Positions 2,637-11,460 of a stretch of DNA of 64,000 nucleotides are shown here, piece after piece. The translations under genes and the position numbers were made by a program. Source of the DNA: Variovorax sp. J2L1-78 (GTDB taxonomy: Bacteria; Pseudomonadota; Gammaproteobacteria; Burkholderiales; Burkholderiaceae_C); assembly GCF_030317205.1 (NCBI RefSeq), contig NZ_JASZYB010000001.1, positions 806,001-870,000 of the forward strand, given 5' to 3'. Below the pieces are notes generated by a model. The model had not been told where the DNA came from, did no database searches, and was given only the letters and a program-made list of their open reading frames with translations. Every line of letters begins with the position of its first letter. The stretch's first letter is position 1.

Positions 2637-3506
2637 TCAGCCGAAACGCAGTGCGATCACACCGCCGACCACCACCAGGGTGCCGGCGGCGCGCTGCCAG
2701 CCAAACGGCTCGCGCAGCAGCAGCGTGCCGATGAAGGCGGCGAACAGCACCGACGTTTCGCGCAGCGCCGCCACCAGGGCGACCGGCGCGCGTGTCATCG
2801 CCCAGAGTGCGATCGCGTAGCTGCCCAGCGAGGCCAGCGTGCCGATGGCGGCGATCTTCCAGCGCCCGGCCATGTAGTGGATCGCGGCGCCGCGCCGCTC
2901 GCCGCGTTGCCACAGCACCAGCAGCAGGTAGGGAATGCCGTCGAACAGGAAGAGCGCCGCGACGTAGGCCAGTGCATCGCCCGACGCGCGCACGCCGATG
3001 CCGTCGACCACCGTGTAGAGCGCGATGATGGCGGCGTTGCCGAAGGCGAAGCGCAGCGCCTTGCGCCGCTGGGCTTCGTCGCCGGCATGCAGCGACGAAC
3101 GCGACAGCCCGAGCGTGAGCACGCCGACGCACACCACCGCCACGCCCACCCAGGACACCGCCGACAGGTGTTCGCCGATGAAGGCTACGCTGCCGACGGC
3201 CACGAGCAGCGGCGCGCTGCCGCGCATCACGGGATAGGTCAGGCCCAGGTCGCCGTGCCGGTAGGCGCCCGCCAAGGCGATGTAGTAGCCCAGATGGATG
3301 GCGGTCGACGTGAAGATGTAGGGCCACGACGCTGTGGCCGGCAGGCCGGTCCACAGCAGCACGGGGAGCGCGACGAAGAAGCCCAGGCTGTGGATGAGCG
3401 CCGTGTCGAGTTGCTTGTCGCGGCCGGACTTGATGAGCGCGTTCCAGCCGGCGTGCAACAGCGCGCCGAACAGCACCGCCAGCAGAACCGGGCCACTGAT
3501 GCTCAC
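2637..3506 (-). CDS. EamA/DMT-family membrane transporter, coupled to the HD oxygenase gene
   Basis: A 289-residue protein made of about ten hydrophobic helices in two repeated halves, the layout of EamA/DMT (RhaT-like) transporters of the inner membrane. The start is taken as GTG at 3504-3506, which overlaps the TGA of the upstream HD gene (GTGA). The two should therefore be translated together. Position in the phosphonate locus suggests export or uptake of a phosphonate-derived compound such as an amine, glycine or aldehyde-related product, but no substrate can be read from sequence. A longer in-frame extension upstream would overlap the HD gene heavily and is rejected. Confidence 0.85.
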   Translation of the reverse strand: MSISGPVLLAVLFGALLHAGWNALIKSGRDKQLDTALIHSLGFFVALPVLLWTGLPATASWPYIFTSTAIHLGYYIALAGAYRHGDLGLTYPVMRGSAPLLVAVGSVAFIGEHLSAVSWVGVAVVCVGVLTLGLSRSSLHAGDEAQRRKALRFAFGNAAIIALYTVVDGIGVRASGDALAYVAALFLFDGIPYLLLVLWQRGERRGAAIHYMAGRWKIAAIGTLASLGSYAIALWAMTRAPVALVAALRETSVLFAAFIGTLLLREPFGWQRAAGTLVVVGGVIALRFG

Positions 3507-4057
3507 GCGCGGGCCAGCATGCAACGCTGTGCGCGTGCCAGGTAGTGCGCGAGCGGTGGCGTGGGGCGGTCCGGTGCCTTGGCTTGATCGTCCCACAGGC
3601 GCAGCGCGACCGCATCGGCCGCGTGCTCCTGCGCGATGAAGGCCTCGGCCTGCGCCGGTGAAAAGATGCCGCCCTGGAGTTCGAGGCTGCGCTTGGAGTC
3701 GTCCGACAGCTGCTGCCAGTAGTCGGCGCGCGTCGCGCACAGGTAGCGCTTGGCGTCGACATGCCACCGGATGGCGGCCAGCACACGCTCGCCGAACACG
3801 CCGCGCAGGAAGGGCAGGGCGAAGTACTGGTGAACGTCGTCGACCCCGCGCAGGGTGGGTGTTTCGCCTTGGTCGTTGAGCAGGTGGCCCAGGTCGTGGA
3901 GCAGGGCGGCTGTGACCAGTTCGTCGTCGGCGCCGGCCTCTTCGGCGAGCAGCGCGGTCTGCAGCGCATGTTGAAGCTGGGTGACCGGTTCGCCGCTGTA
4001 CTGGGCGGCGCCGTGGCGGGCGAAGAGCCCGTCGATGTCCGTGAGGCTCAAAGCCAT
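3503..4057 (-). CDS. PhnZ-like HD-domain mixed-valent diiron oxygenase (phosphonate-associated HDIG protein)
   Basis: A 184-residue HD-domain protein of the type found in phosphonate degradation operons (family TIGR03276). The known member PhnZ cleaves the C-P bond of (R)-1-hydroxy-2-aminoethylphosphonate with O2, giving glycine and phosphate. Seen here: His30, His54-Asp55, His58, His76, His99 and a late W-D-D (155-157), which match the PhnZ iron ligand set as I remember it. Tyr20 and Glu23 (motif Y-S-G-E) keep the spacing of the PhnZ substrate-gating Tyr24/Glu27. It lies 4 bp after the GntR regulator and is coupled to the DMT transporter. A phosphohydrolase role, as in other HD proteins, is the alternative but fits the Y-x-x-E motif less well. 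Confidence 0.85.
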   Translation of the reverse strand: MALSLTDIDGLFARHGAAQYSGEPVTQLQHALQTALLAEEAGADDELVTAALLHDLGHLLNDQGETPTLRGVDDVHQYFALPFLRGVFGERVLAAIRWHVDAKRYLCATRADYWQQLSDDSKRSLELQGGIFSPAQAEAFIAQEHAADAVALRLWDDQAKAPDRPTPPLAHYLARAQRCMLARA

Positions 4058-4793: not shown

Positions 4794-4821
4794 GGTTCCG
4801 ATCCTACGTTCCTCGCCGTCG

Positions 4822-4847
4822 ATTGTCTACGATCTACAAAAGACAAT
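4822..4847. promoter_or_regulatory. Candidate operator for the GntR regulator between phnR and phnS
   Basis: The divergent intergenic region holds an inverted repeat ATTGTCT (4822-4828) and AGACAAT (4841-4847) with a 12-bp spacer. The left arm continues as TTGTCTACGA, which fits the TNGTNNACNA pattern often bound by FCD-type GntR proteins. It sits 29 bp from the regulator start and 105 bp from the phnS start, a usual place for shared control. Binding is inferred only. Confidence 0.45.
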
Positions 4848-4951
4848 AGACGAAGTGCGCGATGTGGCCCCGATTTTGCTTGGCGCCTGTGTCACGGATA
4901 TGTCGTTTCGTGCCGGCACAGTCCCTTTCTTTTTCGACAAGGAGCTTCTCG

Positions 4952-5986
4952 ATGTCTCTCGCCAAGTCACTCATCGCCGGCCTGATCGGCGTGGCATTCG
5001 CCGGCGCTGCGCTGGCCCAGAAAACCCAGCTCATCGTCTACACGGCGCTGGAGACGGACCAGCTCAAGGCCTACCAGGAAGCCTTCAACAAGGTCGAGCC
5101 GACCATCGACATCAAGTGGGTGCGCGATTCGACCGGCGTGATCACGGCCAAGCTGCTGGCCGAGAAGGCCAACCCGCAGGCCGACGTCGTCATGGGCGTG
5201 GCCGCCACCAGCCTGGCCCTGTTCGAGCGCAACGGCATGCTCGAGCCCTATGCGCCGTTGAACCTCGACGCGATCATGCCGGCCTACCGCGACAAGAAGT
5301 CGCCGCCGGCCTGGTTCGGCATGGACGTGTTCGGGGCCGTGGTGTGCTTCAACACCGTCGAAGCCAAGAAGAAGAACATCCCGATTCCGACCACCTGGAA
5401 GGACCTGACCAAGCCCGAGTTCAAGGGCCAGGTCGTGATGCCCAACCCGGCGTCTTCGGGCACCGGCTACCTCGACGTGGTGTCGTGGCTGCAGCTGTGG
5501 GGCGACGACGGCGGCAAGGGCGGCGGCTGGAAGTACATGGACGCGCTGCACGAGAACATCGGCCAGTACACGCACTCGGGTTCCAAGCCCTGCAACATGG
5601 CGGCCGCCGGCGAATACGTGGCCGGCGTGTCCTTCGAATACCGCGGCCACACCAACAAGGCCAAGGGCGCGCCGATCGAACTGGTGTTCCCGAAGGAAGG
5701 CCTGGGCTGGGACCTGGAAGCCTTCGCCATCTACAAGGGCACCAAGAAGCTCGAGGCCGCGAAGAAGCTGGCCGACTGGGCGTCGTCGAAGGACGCGATG
5801 ATCCTGTACGGCAAGAATTTCGCCATCACCGCGCAGCCGGGCGTCGCCCCCAAGCTCGCGAACATTCCGGCCGACTACGAGTCACGGCTGATCAAGCTCG
5901 ACTTCGACAAGGCCGCTGCCGGCCGCGAGCGCACGCTGGCCGAATGGTCCAAGCGCTACGACGCCAAGAGCGAGCCGAAGAAGTAA
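4952..5986 (+). CDS. phnS: 2-aminoethylphosphonate ABC transporter, periplasmic binding protein
   Basis: A 344-residue periplasmic binding protein of the iron/thiamine-type family 1 fold, matching the putative AEP-binding PhnS2 group. A signal peptide (MSLAKSLIAGLIGVAFAGAALA, cleaved before Gln) is clear. The ATG at 4952 was chosen because it gives this signal peptide and has AAGGAG upstream; an in-frame start at 4862 would bury the signal. It is the first gene of a tightly packed operon with the ATPase, permease, phosphatase, FAD oxidase and phnX. That context supports AEP or a related phosphonate as ligand over ferric iron. Confidence 0.88.
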   Translation: MSLAKSLIAGLIGVAFAGAALAQKTQLIVYTALETDQLKAYQEAFNKVEPTIDIKWVRDSTGVITAKLLAEKANPQADVVMGVAATSLALFERNGMLEPYAPLNLDAIMPAYRDKKSPPAWFGMDVFGAVVCFNTVEAKKKNIPIPTTWKDLTKPEFKGQVVMPNPASSGTGYLDVVSWLQLWGDDGGKGGGWKYMDALHENIGQYTHSGSKPCNMAAAGEYVAGVSFEYRGHTNKAKGAPIELVFPKEGLGWDLEAFAIYKGTKKLEAAKKLADWASSKDAMILYGKNFAITAQPGVAPKLANIPADYESRLIKLDFDKAAAGRERTLAEWSKRYDAKSEPKK

Positions 5987-5999
5987 GCCGGGAGCGCGC

Positions 6000-7091
6000 G
6001 TGACAGAGGCCTACCTCGAACTGCAGGGCATCCACAAGCGCTTCGGCGCCTTCACCGCGCTCGACGACATCCACCTGTCGATCGGGCGCGGGGAGTTCGT
6101 CTGCTTCCTGGGGCCCTCGGGCTGCGGCAAGACCACGCTGCTGCGCATCATCGCGGGCCTGGAGACGCAGACCGCCGGGCGCATCGTGCAGGCCGGCCGC
6201 GACATCTCGGTCCTGCCGCCGGGCGGGCGCGACTACGGGATCATGTTCCAGTCGTACGCGCTGTTTCCGAACCTCACGGTCGCGCAGAACGTGGCCTACG
6301 GGCTGGTCAACCGCAGGCAGTCTCGCGCACAGGTCGCGCCGCGCGTCGACGAACTCTTGAAGTTGGTCGGCCTGCCGGGCAGCGGCGGCAAGTATCCAGC
6401 GCAGCTGTCGGGCGGGCAGCAGCAGCGCATCGCGCTGGCGCGTGCGCTGGCCACGTCGCCGGGACTGCTGCTGCTCGACGAGCCGCTGTCGGCGCTCGAC
6501 GCGATCGTGCGCGTCCACCTGCGCAACGAGATCCGCGCCCTGCAGCGCGAGCTGGGCGTGACGACCGTGATGGTCACGCACGACCAGGAAGAGGCGCTGT
6601 CGGTGGCCGACCGCATCGTGGTCATGAACCACGGCGTGATCGAGCAGGTCGGCACGCCGATGCAGGTGTACCGCGAGCCGGCGTCGCCCTTCGTGGCGGA
6701 CTTCGTCGGCAAGGTGAACCGGCTCAAAGGCGTCGCCGAGGGGGAGCGCTGGTTCCGTTGCGGCGACAAGCGACTGCAGTGCGCGCCGGGCGCCGGGGCG
6801 GACTTTCGTGCCGGGCGCGAGGTCGCGCTGTACCTGCGTCCCGAAGACCGCGTGATCGGCGCTGGCGTGCGCGACGACGACCCGCTGCGCTGCGAAGGCA
6901 CGGTGCGCCACATCGAGTTCCTCGGCGGCAACTGCCTGGCCGAGGTCGACGTGCAGGGCATGCCGGGCCAGCCGCTGCAACTGCAGTACTCGCTCAACCA
7001 GATGGACGAGTTCGGCGTGCACGAGGGCGCGAGCGTGCGCTTCGCCTTGCGGGCCGACCGACTGCGCGTGTTTCCCATGGTGTCCGATTGA
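6000..7091 (+). CDS. phnT: 2-aminoethylphosphonate ABC transporter, ATP-binding protein
   Basis: A 363-residue ABC ATPase. It shows Walker A G-P-S-G-C-G-K-T-T near residues 38-46, signature L-S-G-G-Q-Q-Q-R, Walker B L-L-L-D-E-P-L-S-A-L-D, the switch His in V-T-H-D, and a C-terminal TOBE domain (about 290-360). It energises uptake with the binding protein before it and the fused permease after it. The start is GTG at 6000, 13 bp after phnS, with GGGAG upstream. The stop overlaps the next ATG (ATGA), so the permease is translationally coupled. The family resembles PotA/FbpC ATPases; the phosphonate role comes from context. Confidence 0.9.
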   Translation: MTEAYLELQGIHKRFGAFTALDDIHLSIGRGEFVCFLGPSGCGKTTLLRIIAGLETQTAGRIVQAGRDISVLPPGGRDYGIMFQSYALFPNLTVAQNVAYGLVNRRQSRAQVAPRVDELLKLVGLPGSGGKYPAQLSGGQQQRIALARALATSPGLLLLDEPLSALDAIVRVHLRNEIRALQRELGVTTVMVTHDQEEALSVADRIVVMNHGVIEQVGTPMQVYREPASPFVADFVGKVNRLKGVAEGERWFRCGDKRLQCAPGAGADFRAGREVALYLRPEDRVIGAGVRDDDPLRCEGTVRHIEFLGGNCLAEVDVQGMPGQPLQLQYSLNQMDEFGVHEGASVRFALRADRLRVFPMVSD

Positions 7092-8812
7092 TGGCCACCA
7101 TCCACCTTCCCGTACAGGCGCCGCCGTTGCGCCAGCAGGTGCACTGGACCGACCGGCTCGCCAACGTCGCGTTGCTCGGCACGGTGGCGCTGCTGTGCAT
7201 CGGCCTGCTCGCACCGCTGCTGCTGATCCTGTCGAAGGCGCTCGATGCGCCCGACGGTGGTACCGCCTCGGGCACCAGCGCCTTCACCGCTTACCTCGCG
7301 TCACCGGCCTTGCTGCAGAGCCTCTGGCACAGCGTGTGGGTCTCGTTGCTGGTGACCGCCATCGTCGTGCCGCTGGCCTTCACCTTCGCCTATGCGCTGA
7401 CCCGCAGCTGCATGCCCTTCAAGCCGCTGTTCCGGACTATCACGCTGTTGCCGCTGTTGGCCCCATCGCTGCTGTCGGCCATCTCGCTGATCTACTGGTT
7501 CGGCAACCAGGGGCTCGCGAAGGACTTCTGGCGTGCGCTGGGGTTCGATGGCATCTACGGCGCGTCGGGCATCGTGCTGGCCGAATGCTTCGCGGCGTTT
7601 CCGCACGCGTTGATGATCCTCGTCACGGCGCTCGCGCTGGCCGACGCCCGGCTCTACGAGGCGGCCGACGCGCTGGGCACCGGCACCGTGCGCAAGTTCT
7701 TCACCATCACGCTGCCCGGCGCGAAGTACGGGCTGATCTCGGCAGCGCTGGTGAGCTTCACGCTCGTCATCACCGACTTCGGCATTCCGAAGGTGGTCGG
7801 CGGCAACTTCAACATGCTGGCGACCGACGTGTTCAAGCTGGTCATCGGCCAGCAGGACTTCCAGCGCGGCGCAGTCGTGGCCCTGCTGCTGCTGACGCCG
7901 GCGGCGCTGACCTTCGCCATCGACCACGTCGTGCAGCGCAGGCAGACCTCCACCCTCACGGCGCGCGCCGTGGCGCTGGTGCCGAAGCGCGCACGCGGCT
8001 TCGACGTCGCGATGACGCTCTACTGCATCGTCATCGTCGCGCTGATGCTCGCGATGTTCCTGATGGCAGTGTTCGCATCGTTCGCGACGCTGTGGCCCTA
8101 CAACCTGGCGCCGAGCCTGACCCACTATGTCTCGGGGCTGGTCGACGCGGAGCTGGGCGACGCGATGATCAACAGCCTGAAGCTGGCCGCCTGCACCGCC
8201 GTGATCGGCACGGCGGTGGTGTTCGTCGGCGCCTACCTGCTGGAGAAGACCCACGGCATGGACTGGGCGCGCCAACTGGTGCGGCTGCTCGCGATGCTGC
8301 CGATGGCGGTGCCGGGCCTGGTGCTCGGCCTGGGCTACATCTTCTTCTTCAACGCGCCGTCGAACCCGCTCAACGTTTTCTACCAGACCCTGCCTTTGAT
8401 GGTGCTGTGCACGATCGTCCATTTCTACACGACCGGCCACCTGACGATGGTGACCGCGCTGAAGTCGATGGACGCTGAATTCGAGGCGGTGTCCGCCTCG
8501 CTCAAGGTGCCGTTCTACAAGACCTTCTGGCGCGTCACGCTGCCCATTTGCCTGCCAACGCTGCTGGACGTGTCGCGCTATTTCTTCGTCAACGCGATGA
8601 CGACCATCTCGGCCGTGGTGTTCCTGTACTCGCCCGACACCAAGCTGGCCTCGGTCGCGATCCTGAACCTCGACGAAGCCGGCGACACCGGTCCGGCCGC
8701 CGCCATGGCGGTGCTGATCGCGGCCACCTCTGCCGTCGTCACCGTGCTGTACATGGCGCTGGGCAAATGGGTCGACCGTCGCACCCAAGCCTGGCGGGCC
8801 CCGAGCCGATGA
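7091..8812 (+). CDS. phnU: 2-aminoethylphosphonate ABC transporter, fused double permease
   Basis: A 573-residue inner membrane protein with two permease domains in one chain, each with about six helices and its own EAA-type loop (one near residue 195, E-A-A-D-A-L-G; another near 465). It matches the fused FbpB-like layout of the putative AEP permease group (PhnU2). Because both halves are in one chain, the transporter needs no second permease gene, and none is seen. The ATG overlaps the phnT stop, and its own stop overlaps the next ATG, so the whole arm is one transcription unit. Confidence 0.88.
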   Translation: MATIHLPVQAPPLRQQVHWTDRLANVALLGTVALLCIGLLAPLLLILSKALDAPDGGTASGTSAFTAYLASPALLQSLWHSVWVSLLVTAIVVPLAFTFAYALTRSCMPFKPLFRTITLLPLLAPSLLSAISLIYWFGNQGLAKDFWRALGFDGIYGASGIVLAECFAAFPHALMILVTALALADARLYEAADALGTGTVRKFFTITLPGAKYGLISAALVSFTLVITDFGIPKVVGGNFNMLATDVFKLVIGQQDFQRGAVVALLLLTPAALTFAIDHVVQRRQTSTLTARAVALVPKRARGFDVAMTLYCIVIVALMLAMFLMAVFASFATLWPYNLAPSLTHYVSGLVDAELGDAMINSLKLAACTAVIGTAVVFVGAYLLEKTHGMDWARQLVRLLAMLPMAVPGLVLGLGYIFFFNAPSNPLNVFYQTLPLMVLCTIVHFYTTGHLTMVTALKSMDAEFEAVSASLKVPFYKTFWRVTLPICLPTLLDVSRYFFVNAMTTISAVVFLYSPDTKLASVAILNLDEAGDTGPAAAMAVLIAATSAVVTVLYMALGKWVDRRTQAWRAPSR

Positions 8813-9501
8813 GCACGCTGGTCCTGTTCGACCTCGACAACACCTTGCTCGACGGGGATAGCGAAGTGCTGTGGGTCGATTTCCTGATGGCGCAAGGGCT
8901 GCTCGACGCAAGCTTCGCCGCGCGCAACGCCGAGATGGACGGCCGCTACCGCGCCGGCGAAGCCGAACCGGCGGACTTCTGCGAGTTCTTCGCCGCCACG
9001 CTCCAGGGCCGCACGCCCGCACAGTGGCATCCGGTGCGCGAAGCTTTCATGGCCCAGGTGATCCGGCCGCGCATTCCGCCGGCCGCCCGCGAACTGGTCC
9101 AGCAGCACGTCCTGCAAGGGGACCTGCTGGTGCTCACGAGCGCCACGAGCCGCTTCCTGGTCGAACGCACGGCGGCGGAACTGGGCTTCGAGCACCTGAT
9201 CGCCACCGAGCTCGCACAGGAGACGAGCGGCCGCTTCAGTGGGCGCACGCGTGGCACGCTCAACATGCGCGAAGGCAAGGTGACGCGCCTGCGCGCGTGG
9301 CTGGCCGAGCGCGGCGTGACCTCCGACGGGCTGCTGCGGACGGCCTTCTTCTACAGCGACTCCATCAACGACTTGCCCCTGCTGCTGGCCGTCGGACAAC
9401 CGGTTGTCGTCGACCCCGACACCCGTCTGGCGGCCGAGGCGCAGGCACGGCACTGGCCGGTGCTGCGTCTTGCACGCTCTTCCTTTTTCTCCGAAGCATG
9501 A
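8809..9501 (+). CDS. HAD-IB family hydrolase (probable phosphatase)
   Basis: A 230-residue protein of HAD subfamily IB. Motif I is F-D-L-D-N-T with nucleophile Asp8 and Asp10. Motif II is the T-S-A-T-S stretch near residue 107, and motif IV is S-D-S-I-N-D near 183-188. A helical cap lies between motifs I and II, as in SerB-like phosphatases. Such proteins hydrolyse small phosphomonoesters. It sits between permease and FAD oxidase with 4-bp overlaps on both sides, so it belongs to the phosphonate operon. Its substrate is unknown; a phosphorylated side product is a fair guess, not a finding. Confidence 0.85.
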   Translation: MSTLVLFDLDNTLLDGDSEVLWVDFLMAQGLLDASFAARNAEMDGRYRAGEAEPADFCEFFAATLQGRTPAQWHPVREAFMAQVIRPRIPPAARELVQQHVLQGDLLVLTSATSRFLVERTAAELGFEHLIATELAQETSGRFSGRTRGTLNMREGKVTRLRAWLAERGVTSDGLLRTAFFYSDSINDLPLLLAVGQPVVVDPDTRLAAEAQARHWPVLRLARSSFFSEA

Positions 9502-10625
9502 CTGAAACAAACACGAACTTCGACCTCGTCGTCGTCGGTGCCGGCATCGTCGGCCTGGCGCATGCCTACGTGGCCGCACAGCGCGGCTTGCGCGTGTGCG
9601 TGGTGGAGCGCGACGCGGCCTGCGTCGGCGCGTCGATCCGCAACTTCGGCTTCGTGACCGTCACGGGGCAGGGCGCCGGCGACACCTGGCGCCGCGCCCG
9701 GCGTGCCCGCGAGATCTGGGGCGAGGTCGCGCCGCAGGCCGGCATTGAGGCGGTGCACCAGGGCCTGTACCTCACGGCCTTCCGCCCGCAGGCGCTCAAA
9801 GTGCTCGAGGCCTTCATGGCCACCGAGATGGGGGAGGGCTGCGAACTGCTCGGCCTGGACGAAGCCGCCCGGCGCGCGCCGGTGCTGCAGCTGGACGGCG
9901 CCCAGGGCGTGCTCTACAGCCCGCACGAGATGCGCGTCGAGTCGCGCACCGCCATCGGCCTGCTGGCGCGCTGGCTGGCCGAGGCGCACGGTGTGGTGTT
10001 CCGTTTCGGCGAGGCCGTGCTCGAGGTCGCGACGCCGCGCGTGCGCACGTCGCGCGCGGTGCTGCATGGCGAGCGCGTGGCGGTGTGCACCAACACCGAC
10101 CTGAACGGCCTCTTCGCCGAGCGCCTGGTGCCACACCAGTTGCGCCTGTGCCAGCTGCACATGCTGCGGGTGCAGCCGGAGCATGGCTTCCGGCTGCCGG
10201 GCTCCGTGATGGCCGACCTGAGCCTGGTGCGCTACCACGGCTACAGCCAGTTGCCCGAGGCGGCGCCGCTGCTCGAGCAGATGCGCCGGGAGGAGGGCGA
10301 ATCGCTGGCCCACGGCATCCATCTCATCGTCGTGCAGAGCGCCGACGGTTCGCTGGTGGTGGGCGATTCGCACCACTACGGCGCCGTGCTCGAACCCTTC
10401 GCCGACCAGCGCGTCGATGACCTGATCCTGCGGCACCTGCGCGAGACGCTCAAGCTGCAGCAGGCCACCGTGACCCAGCGCTGGGTCGGCACCTACCCCT
10501 CGTCGGCCAGCACCGACTGCCTGATCGACCGCCCCGACGACGCCACGCGGATGGTGATCGTCACCAGCGGCACCGGCGCCAGCACCGCCTTCGGCATCGC
10601 CGAAGAAGTGTTCGCGGATTGGTAA
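9498..10625 (+). CDS. FAD-dependent amine oxidoreductase of phosphonate operons (TIGR03364 type)
   Basis: A 375-residue DAO-fold flavoprotein. The N-terminal dinucleotide site V-V-G-A-G-I-V-G-L-A-H-A is at about residues 12-23, a conserved E near 42 should bind the ribose, and G-T-G-A-S-T-A-F-G lies near the C-terminus. It resembles the FAD oxidoreductases that recur in phosphonate clusters. Some of these have been reported to oxidise N-methyl-AEP, and some AEP itself, directly to phosphonoacetaldehyde. With no PhnW transaminase in this cluster, and phnX next door, it is the best candidate for making phosphonoacetaldehyde here. The start ATG overlaps the HAD stop. The exact substrate is not readable. 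Confidence 0.85.
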   Translation: MTETNTNFDLVVVGAGIVGLAHAYVAAQRGLRVCVVERDAACVGASIRNFGFVTVTGQGAGDTWRRARRAREIWGEVAPQAGIEAVHQGLYLTAFRPQALKVLEAFMATEMGEGCELLGLDEAARRAPVLQLDGAQGVLYSPHEMRVESRTAIGLLARWLAEAHGVVFRFGEAVLEVATPRVRTSRAVLHGERVAVCTNTDLNGLFAERLVPHQLRLCQLHMLRVQPEHGFRLPGSVMADLSLVRYHGYSQLPEAAPLLEQMRREEGESLAHGIHLIVVQSADGSLVVGDSHHYGAVLEPFADQRVDDLILRHLRETLKLQQATVTQRWVGTYPSSASTDCLIDRPDDATRMVIVTSGTGASTAFGIAEEVFADW

Positions 10626-10644: not shown

Positions 10645-11460
10645 ATGACTTCCAAACCAACCACCCTCGGCGCCGTCGTCTTCGACTGGGCCGGCACCAT
10701 CCTCGACTTCGGCTCCTGCGCCCCGATGGGCGCCTTCGTGCGCCTGTTCGAGAAGTTCGGCGTCGAACTCACCATCGCCGAGGCGCGCGGTCCCATGGGC
10801 ATGGCCAAGTGGGACCACATCCATGCGCTCGGCCAATTGCCGCGCGTCGCGGCGCAATGGCAGACGGTGCACGGCACGCCCTTCGGCAACGCCGACGTGG
10901 ACCACCTCTACGAGGTCTTCACGCCGATGAACGCGGCGGTGGTGGCCGACTTCGCCGATTTCATTCCGGGCGCCGTGGCGATGGTCGATGCCCTGCGCGC
11001 GCGCGGGCTGAAGATCGGCTCGACCACCGGCTACAACCGCCCGATCATGGACATCGTGACGCCCATCGCCGCCGCTGGCGGCTACGTGCCGGACAACCTG
11101 GTGTGCGCCGGCGACCTGGCGGCCGGCCGTCCATCACCGCTCATGATGTACCGCACCTTCGCCGACATCGGCGTGTGGCCGCCGTCGCGCGTGGTGAAGG
11201 TGGACGACACCGGCGTCGGCATCGAGGAAGGCCTGAACGCCGGCACCTGGACGGTCGGCCTGGCCATCAGCGGCAACGCGGTCGGCTTGCCGCTGGCGCA
11301 ATGGGAGGCGCTCGACGCGGCACAGCAGGCGGTGCTGCGTCAGGCCGCGACCGCCAAGCTGAAGGCGGCCGGCGCGCACTACGTGATCGACAGCGTGGCC
11401 GACCTGATGCCCGTCATCGAAGACATCGAGGCGAAGCTCAAGCAGGGCATCACGCCCTGA
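10645..11460 (+). CDS. phnX: Phosphonoacetaldehyde hydrolase (phosphonatase)
   Basis: A 271-residue HAD-family enzyme that hydrolyses phosphonoacetaldehyde to acetaldehyde and phosphate. Diagnostic points are seen. Motif I is F-D-W-A-G-T, with nucleophile Asp14 and Ala16 in place of the usual second Asp, as in true phosphonatases. G-M-A-K-W-D-H carries Lys55, which should form the Schiff base with the aldehyde. A late V-K-V-D-D-T motif completes the HAD core. Length matches the family. It closes the rightward phosphonate operon, 19 bp after the FAD oxidase, and converges with ligE. Confidence 0.96.
   Translation: MTSKPTTLGAVVFDWAGTILDFGSCAPMGAFVRLFEKFGVELTIAEARGPMGMAKWDHIHALGQLPRVAAQWQTVHGTPFGNADVDHLYEVFTPMNAAVVADFADFIPGAVAMVDALRARGLKIGSTTGYNRPIMDIVTPIAAAGGYVPDNLVCAGDLAAGRPSPLMMYRTFADIGVWPPSRVVKVDDTGVGIEEGLNAGTWTVGLAISGNAVGLPLAQWEALDAAQQAVLRQAATAKLKAAGAHYVIDSVADLMPVIEDIEAKLKQGITP

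Follow-up and report, generated by a model that had tools for sequence, protein, structure and literature searches.

A PhnZ/TmpB-type HD oxygenase without a hydroxylase partner in a Variovorax phosphonate locus: a probable enzyme for an imported alpha-hydroxyphosphonate

Where does a PhnZ-like enzyme find its hydroxylated substrate when no hydroxylase is encoded beside it? The question is raised by a small HD-domain protein encoded in a 64,000-nucleotide stretch of the Variovorax sp. J2L1-78 genome (C1:806001-870000; here called the window). A sequence-only reading of the window had assigned the protein to the PhnZ type and left three options for its substrate: direct uptake of hydroxylated AEP, a hydroxylase other than PhnY, or a different substrate altogether. 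Here we computed the family, the fold, the conserved residues, the operon setting and the absence of a partner.

The HD gene stands second in a minus-strand operon with the order GntR-HD-EamA, which diverges from plus-strand importer and catabolic genes; neither the strand nor this operon had been given in the sequence-only reading. The features are as follows (window coordinates).

2637-3506, minus strand: EamA membrane protein, related to TIGR03340 phn_DUF6 (225 bits, below the 288 cut-off)
3503-4057, minus strand: HD-domain mixed-valent diiron oxygenase of PhnZ/TmpB type (TIGR03276, "PhnHD"); ATG start, 184 aa
4062-4793, minus strand: GntR/FCD regulator phnR_burk, upstream in the HD operon (TIGR03338, 303.6 bits, cut-off 271.5)
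4817-4852, no strand: inverted repeat CGTCGATTGTCT-N12-AGACAATAGACG in the divergent promoter region, a candidate GntR operator
4952-5986, plus strand: 2-AEP substrate-binding protein PhnS2 (TIGR03261, 478.8 bits)
6000-7091, plus strand: AEP importer ATPase PhnT2 (TIGR03265, 508.1 bits)
7091-8812, plus strand: AEP importer permease PhnU2 (TIGR03262, 779.3 bits)
8809-9501, plus strand: HAD-IB phosphatase-like protein, between the importer and FAD oxidase genes
9498-10625, plus strand: FAD oxidoreductase TIGR03364 (HpnW; the family of PbfD1)
10645-11460, plus strand: phosphonoacetaldehyde hydrolase PhnX (TIGR01422, 341.1 bits)

Only a few bases separate the phnR_burk gene from the HD gene, and the GTG start of the EamA gene overlaps the HD stop codon (GTGA). 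The inverted repeat may be the operator of the GntR regulator; its left half, GATTGTCTACGAT, is invariant across four aligned sequences from relatives. PbfD enzymes (TIGR03364 includes PbfD1) were shown to oxidise N-methyl-AEP to phosphonoacetaldehyde, the substrate of PhnX (PMC10590968); R-HAEP and N-methyl-R-HAEP were also synthesised for that study. The route via PhnX enters through the PbfD-like FAD oxidase and not through PhnW: the genome holds no PhnW above the cut-off (best score 66.7 versus 400.8 bits), and the C-P lyase gene phnJ was not found in it either. The closest locus, in Variovorax sp. N23 (L097), encodes an HD protein of 94% identity, and its other cluster genes are 92-98% identical. 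The HAD-IB gene is seemingly missing from the N23 cluster and is present in that of Pseudorhodoferax (L099).

When the HD protein was compared with all PDB chains by phmmer, its only significant relatives were PhnZ (E 1.6e-32) and TmpB (8e-32); at E values of about 1e-32 to both, the likeness is not due to chance. The NCBIfam model TIGR03276, "phosphonate degradation HD-domain oxygenase," matched at 239.1 bits over profile positions 4-179 of 179 (cut-off 214.6), and the phosphonate context that belongs to the family is present, with genes for the AEP importer, PhnX, TIGR03364 and phnR_burk adjoining the HD gene. This model is broad. TmpB-type proteins also reach about 197-215 bits, and membership hence leaves the substrate unfixed. 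Identity to PhnZ and to TmpB is equally low (34-37%).

The sequence-only reading had listed a full set of ligands and a Tyr20/Glu23 gate, and all of these residues are where it placed them. The diiron ligands are H30, H54, D55, H76, H99 and D156, with H58 also present; from the Asp156/157 pair that it had left open, D156 is the residue aligned to PhnZ D161. The gate, Y20-S-G-E23, has the spacing of Y24-E27 in PhnZ and Y30-E33 in TmpB, and such a YxxE gate sets these two enzymes apart among HD proteins (PMC8177086). K103, S121 and Q128 of the PhnZ/TmpB set are kept as well. In an alignment of 50 relatives, H30, H54, D55, H99, K103, R153 and D156 were invariant, and Y20, E23, H58 and H76 were each at least 90% conserved; ligands and gate were retained in at least 76 of the 78 rows of the window's clade. 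HD proteins of the C-P lyase operons at three other loci (L065, L071 and L072) carry a YxE gate (YGE) and not YxxE.

The predicted fold gave the same answer. An AlphaFold model of the HD protein, made from an alignment of relatives, had a mean pLDDT of 95, and the only Foldseek matches at E <0.001 were TmpB and PhnZ. The comparison that the sequence-only reading had proposed, made with VIA-align 2, gave Z 25.7 for TmpB (rmsd 1.8, 173 residues) and Z 24.6 for PhnZ (rmsd 1.9, 175 residues), far above any hydrolase. Overall, PhnZ and TmpB structures aligned to the model with Z 23-26 and rmsd 1.8-2.5 over 173-176 residues, while myo-inositol oxygenase (MIOX) reached Z 11.0 and other HD proteins at most 8.6. 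Sequence, family model, predicted fold and conserved residues thus all uphold assignment to the PhnZ type.

We conclude that the HD protein is probably a PhnZ/TmpB-type C-P cleaving oxygenase that acts on an imported alpha-hydroxy aminophosphonate, the likeliest being (R)-1-hydroxy-2-aminoethylphosphonate (R-HAEP) or its N-methyl form. The type of reaction follows from the family, as assigned from relatives. By analogy with the mechanism described for PhnZ and TmpB (PMC8177086), binding of the substrate would swing the Y20/E23 gate and take the tyrosine off the iron, O2 would bind the second iron, and the alpha hydrogen would be abstracted; phosphate would then leave. The mixed-valent Fe(II)/Fe(III) centre would be held by H30, H54/D55, H76, H99 and D156. 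R-HAEP would yield phosphate and glycine, and the N-methyl form phosphate and sarcosine.

The substrate, its import and the physiological role of the enzyme are our inference. The neighbouring AEP importer PhnSTU would bring in the substrate ready-made, with no hydroxylase in the same pathway; the HD branch would take hydroxylated, perhaps N-methylated, AEP, and the branch of FAD oxidase and PhnX would take AEP and N-methyl-AEP. R-HAEP is a natural, environmental compound that PhnW-PhnX handles poorly (PMC8154272). Among 19,425 complete genomes, phnZ homologues occurred in 15 of 1,186 phnWX clusters and in 24 of 75 phnWAY clusters, and there were 0 cases of phnZ in one cluster with pbfA, the gene for the R-HAEP ammonia-lyase (PMC8154272). 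Such mutual exclusion agrees with a single imported compound being served by either of two enzymes. PbfA and the HD enzyme would share an environmental substrate, used without a hydroxylase, and both are ancillary to AEP clusters; PbfA differs in being a PLP lyase that yields phosphonoacetaldehyde. We found no assay of any TIGR03276 enzyme from the window's branch in the openly licensed literature.

Perhaps the branch has a substrate of its own, neither R-HAEP nor the N-methyl form? This could be hydroxymethylphosphonate, as for PhnZ1 of Gimesia maris, or some other environmental alpha-hydroxyphosphonate. Both substrate-specific NCBIfam models gave scores far below their cut-offs of 300, with 158.3 bits for TmpB (NF049941) and 138.7 bits for the hydroxymethylphosphonate dioxygenase PhnZ1 (NF052439). 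The HD protein also falls outside the TmpB clade and has no TmpA-like gene near it; with PhnZ1 it shares superfamily and motif, but no methylphosphonate hydroxylase partner is present here. At F132, L154 and Q27 the HD protein departs from PhnZ, TmpB or both, and position 132 is mostly F across the window's clade, versus M in PhnZ and TmpB. F132 and L154 may be part of a substrate-specificity code, which we offer as a lead. The PhnZ/TmpB substrate-binding residues, by comparison, are common to enzymes with different substrates and therefore do not fix specificity. Members of the clade sit with several phosphonate pathways, C-P lyase clusters included. However, the importer and the neighbours at this locus are of AEP type, R-HAEP does occur in the environment, and no cluster contains both pbfA and phnZ (PMC8154272). 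A substrate peculiar to the branch therefore seems rather unlikely, though it is the rival that survives best.

Alternatively, the reaction might be the same and the hydroxyphosphonate made in the cell, by a PhyH or TauD hydroxylase encoded elsewhere in the genome. Five PhyH and four TauD matches are indeed present, all of them outside the window; the earlier statement that the window lacks a PhnY-like dioxygenase thus stood, and it proved to extend to the whole branch (see below). No PhnY* adjoins the HD gene, as it would in a PhnY*/PhnZ pair. The genome search that the sequence-only reading had suggested found no PhnY-like protein among the five PhyH at curated cut-offs. One of these (L002) reached 32.5 bits, a weak match, with the methylphosphonate hydroxylase model, whose cut-off is 500, but scored higher to ectoine hydroxylase (64.7 bits). 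None of the four TauD proteins was TmpA-like (at most 39.7 bits, versus 246-395 for true TmpA neighbours).

Is the missing partner an oddity of one genome? Our survey covered 300 Burkholderiales genomes, in which the HD family scored above the cut-off in 39 and strongly, but below it, in about a dozen more; neighbourhoods were examined at 52 Burkholderiales loci and at 80 loci of other genomes. A tree of 135 proteins separated the TmpB clade (SH-aLRT 96) from the window's clade (78 rows, 90; inner group of 62 rows, 97). A phosphonate gene lay within 10 kb at 64 of the 77 loci of the window's clade, and an AEP-type PhnS at 29. Nevertheless, TmpA or PhyH was nearby at none of these 77 loci, whereas a TmpA-like gene was adjacent or fused at 7 of the 8 TmpB-clade loci (Fisher p 1.6e-9, a value that ignores shared ancestry and treats as independent events loci that are not). 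The positive cases were recovered, which shows that the partner-finding method works. The missing hydroxylase is therefore a property of the branch.

Because the sensitivity of our own PhyH profile was no more than moderate (E about 1e-5 for held-out proteins and 0.012 for one seed), absence near the HD gene was also based on Pfam PF05721 applied to whole genomes. Among 50 Burkholderiales genomes with the HD gene, PhyH lay within 5 kb of it in G144 only, where the two are fused, and G144 is outside the window's clade. PhyH was absent from 11 of the 50 and TauD, scored only as presence or absence per genome, from 12; in a second genome set, PhyH was absent in 6 of 38. Two genomes, G163 (98% complete) and G288 (97%), had neither PhyH nor TauD and yet carried the HD gene with PhnS-PhnT-PhnU-FAD-PhnX as in the window. 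Since such genomes exist, the branch is unlikely to depend on a dedicated hydroxylase encoded away from the HD gene, and where a hydroxylase is used it lies adjacent or fused. We accordingly think it distinctly unlikely that this Variovorax makes the hydroxyphosphonate in this way. Among the three options raised earlier, direct uptake of hydroxylated AEP is the best supported, and recourse to another hydroxylase fares poorly across the branch.

We also considered whether the FAD oxidase and the HD enzyme might act consecutively, with the TIGR03364 oxidase producing, or leaving over, the hydroxylated compound that the HD enzyme then cleaves. HAEP is suggested as a substrate in the TIGR03364 description, the authors of the Achromobacter study (PMC11203657) raised the idea that HpnW might supply PhnHD with its substrate, and genes for the HD enzyme, the FAD oxidase and PhnX or a PhnX-like protein are again found together outside Proteobacteria, in Planctomycetes and Bacteroidetes. 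However, the product that PbfD enzymes were shown to form from N-methyl-AEP is phosphonoacetaldehyde and not a hydroxyphosphonate (PMC10590968), and the FAD oxidase gene is near at only 16 of the 77 loci of the window's clade. Consecutive action is hence quite improbable. Finally, that an ordinary HD phosphohydrolase, as clade members are named in old annotations, was placed in the cluster by chance is scarcely credible, given the diiron motif with its YxxE gate and hydrolase folds at Z of at most 8.6 versus 24-26 for PhnZ and TmpB, on which grounds we rejected it.

The preferred reading, a C-P cleaving oxygenase fed by import, places the HD protein beside several known systems. PhnZ of bacterium HF130_AEPn_1 (PDB 4MLM, 4MLN, 4N71) shares the fold (Z 23-25), the diiron ligands, the YxxE gate and the phosphonate-binding residues, but is only about 36% identical, is paired with the hydroxylase PhnY* and belongs to a separate deep branch of the tree. 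TmpB of Leisingera caerulea (PDB 6NPA) likewise shares fold (Z 25.7), ligands and gate; it differs in identity (about 34%), in a trimethylated substrate and in belonging to a clade with TmpA adjoining or fused. Closest in layout are the phosphonatase clusters of Achromobacter insolitus and A. aegrifaciens, for which PhnHD (TIGR03276) was aligned and modelled, and the question of its substrate raised, in 2024 (PMC11203657). They share with our locus the family, phnSTU, the HpnW FAD oxidase and PhnX as neighbours, and the lack of PhnW or PhnY*. They differ in genus and in having a LysR regulator where GntR (phnR_burk) stands here, and the EamA and HAD genes are extra at our locus.

The gene type and its partnerless arrangement are thus already published, as phnZ in phnWX and phnWAY clusters (PMC8154272) and as PhnHD in Achromobacter (PMC11203657), and the locus is less new than the sequence-only reading implied. 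What we add is the absence of the hydroxylase throughout a clade, set against the TmpB clade, together with whole genomes that lack any PhyH or TauD. This narrows the question to which imported alpha-hydroxyphosphonate the HD enzyme cuts. If its substrate were shown, the enzyme would represent an extra phosphorus source in soil phosphonate cycling, and counting "phnZ" genes as proof of the PhnY*-PhnZ AEP pathway would over-count that pathway. More speculatively, the enzymes of the large partner-free branch might specialise in scavenging alpha-hydroxyphosphonates from the environment, with a novel substrate range, for instance N-methyl-R-HAEP cleaved to sarcosine and phosphate. We hold this idea tentatively; were it true, soil and fresh water should contain a substantial stock of these compounds, most of it as yet unmeasured.

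The survey also brought to light several gene arrangements. The window's branch occurs in C-P lyase clusters too, where a different substrate might be used, and its members sit with several phosphonate pathways. An HD oxygenase, an FAD oxidase and PhnX or a PhnX-like protein are encoded side by side at six loci of Planctomycetes and Bacteroidetes (L144, L147, L148, L149, L153 and L175), a trio that recurs across phyla. A natural bacterial TmpA-TmpB fusion is encoded by a single ORF of 583 aa in an uncultured Gammaproteobacteria MAG (L151:8777-10528); its TmpA-type part scored 428.6 bits (above the 400 cut-off; 478.5 with the gamma-butyrobetaine dioxygenase model) and its TmpB-type HD part 259.9 bits (below 300). 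In G144, one ORF (L078:3840-5387) joins a PhyH protein like methylphosphonate hydroxylase (245.9 bits) to a PhnZ1-like HD protein (212.3 bits), downstream of PhnD-PhnC-PhnE genes, an arrangement that mirrors, in a bacterium, that of fungal PhoF. One TmpB-clade gene (L166) stands without an adjacent TmpA, and the ORF preceding it resembles a dimethylglycine or sarcosine dehydrogenase, which fits a glycine betaine product.
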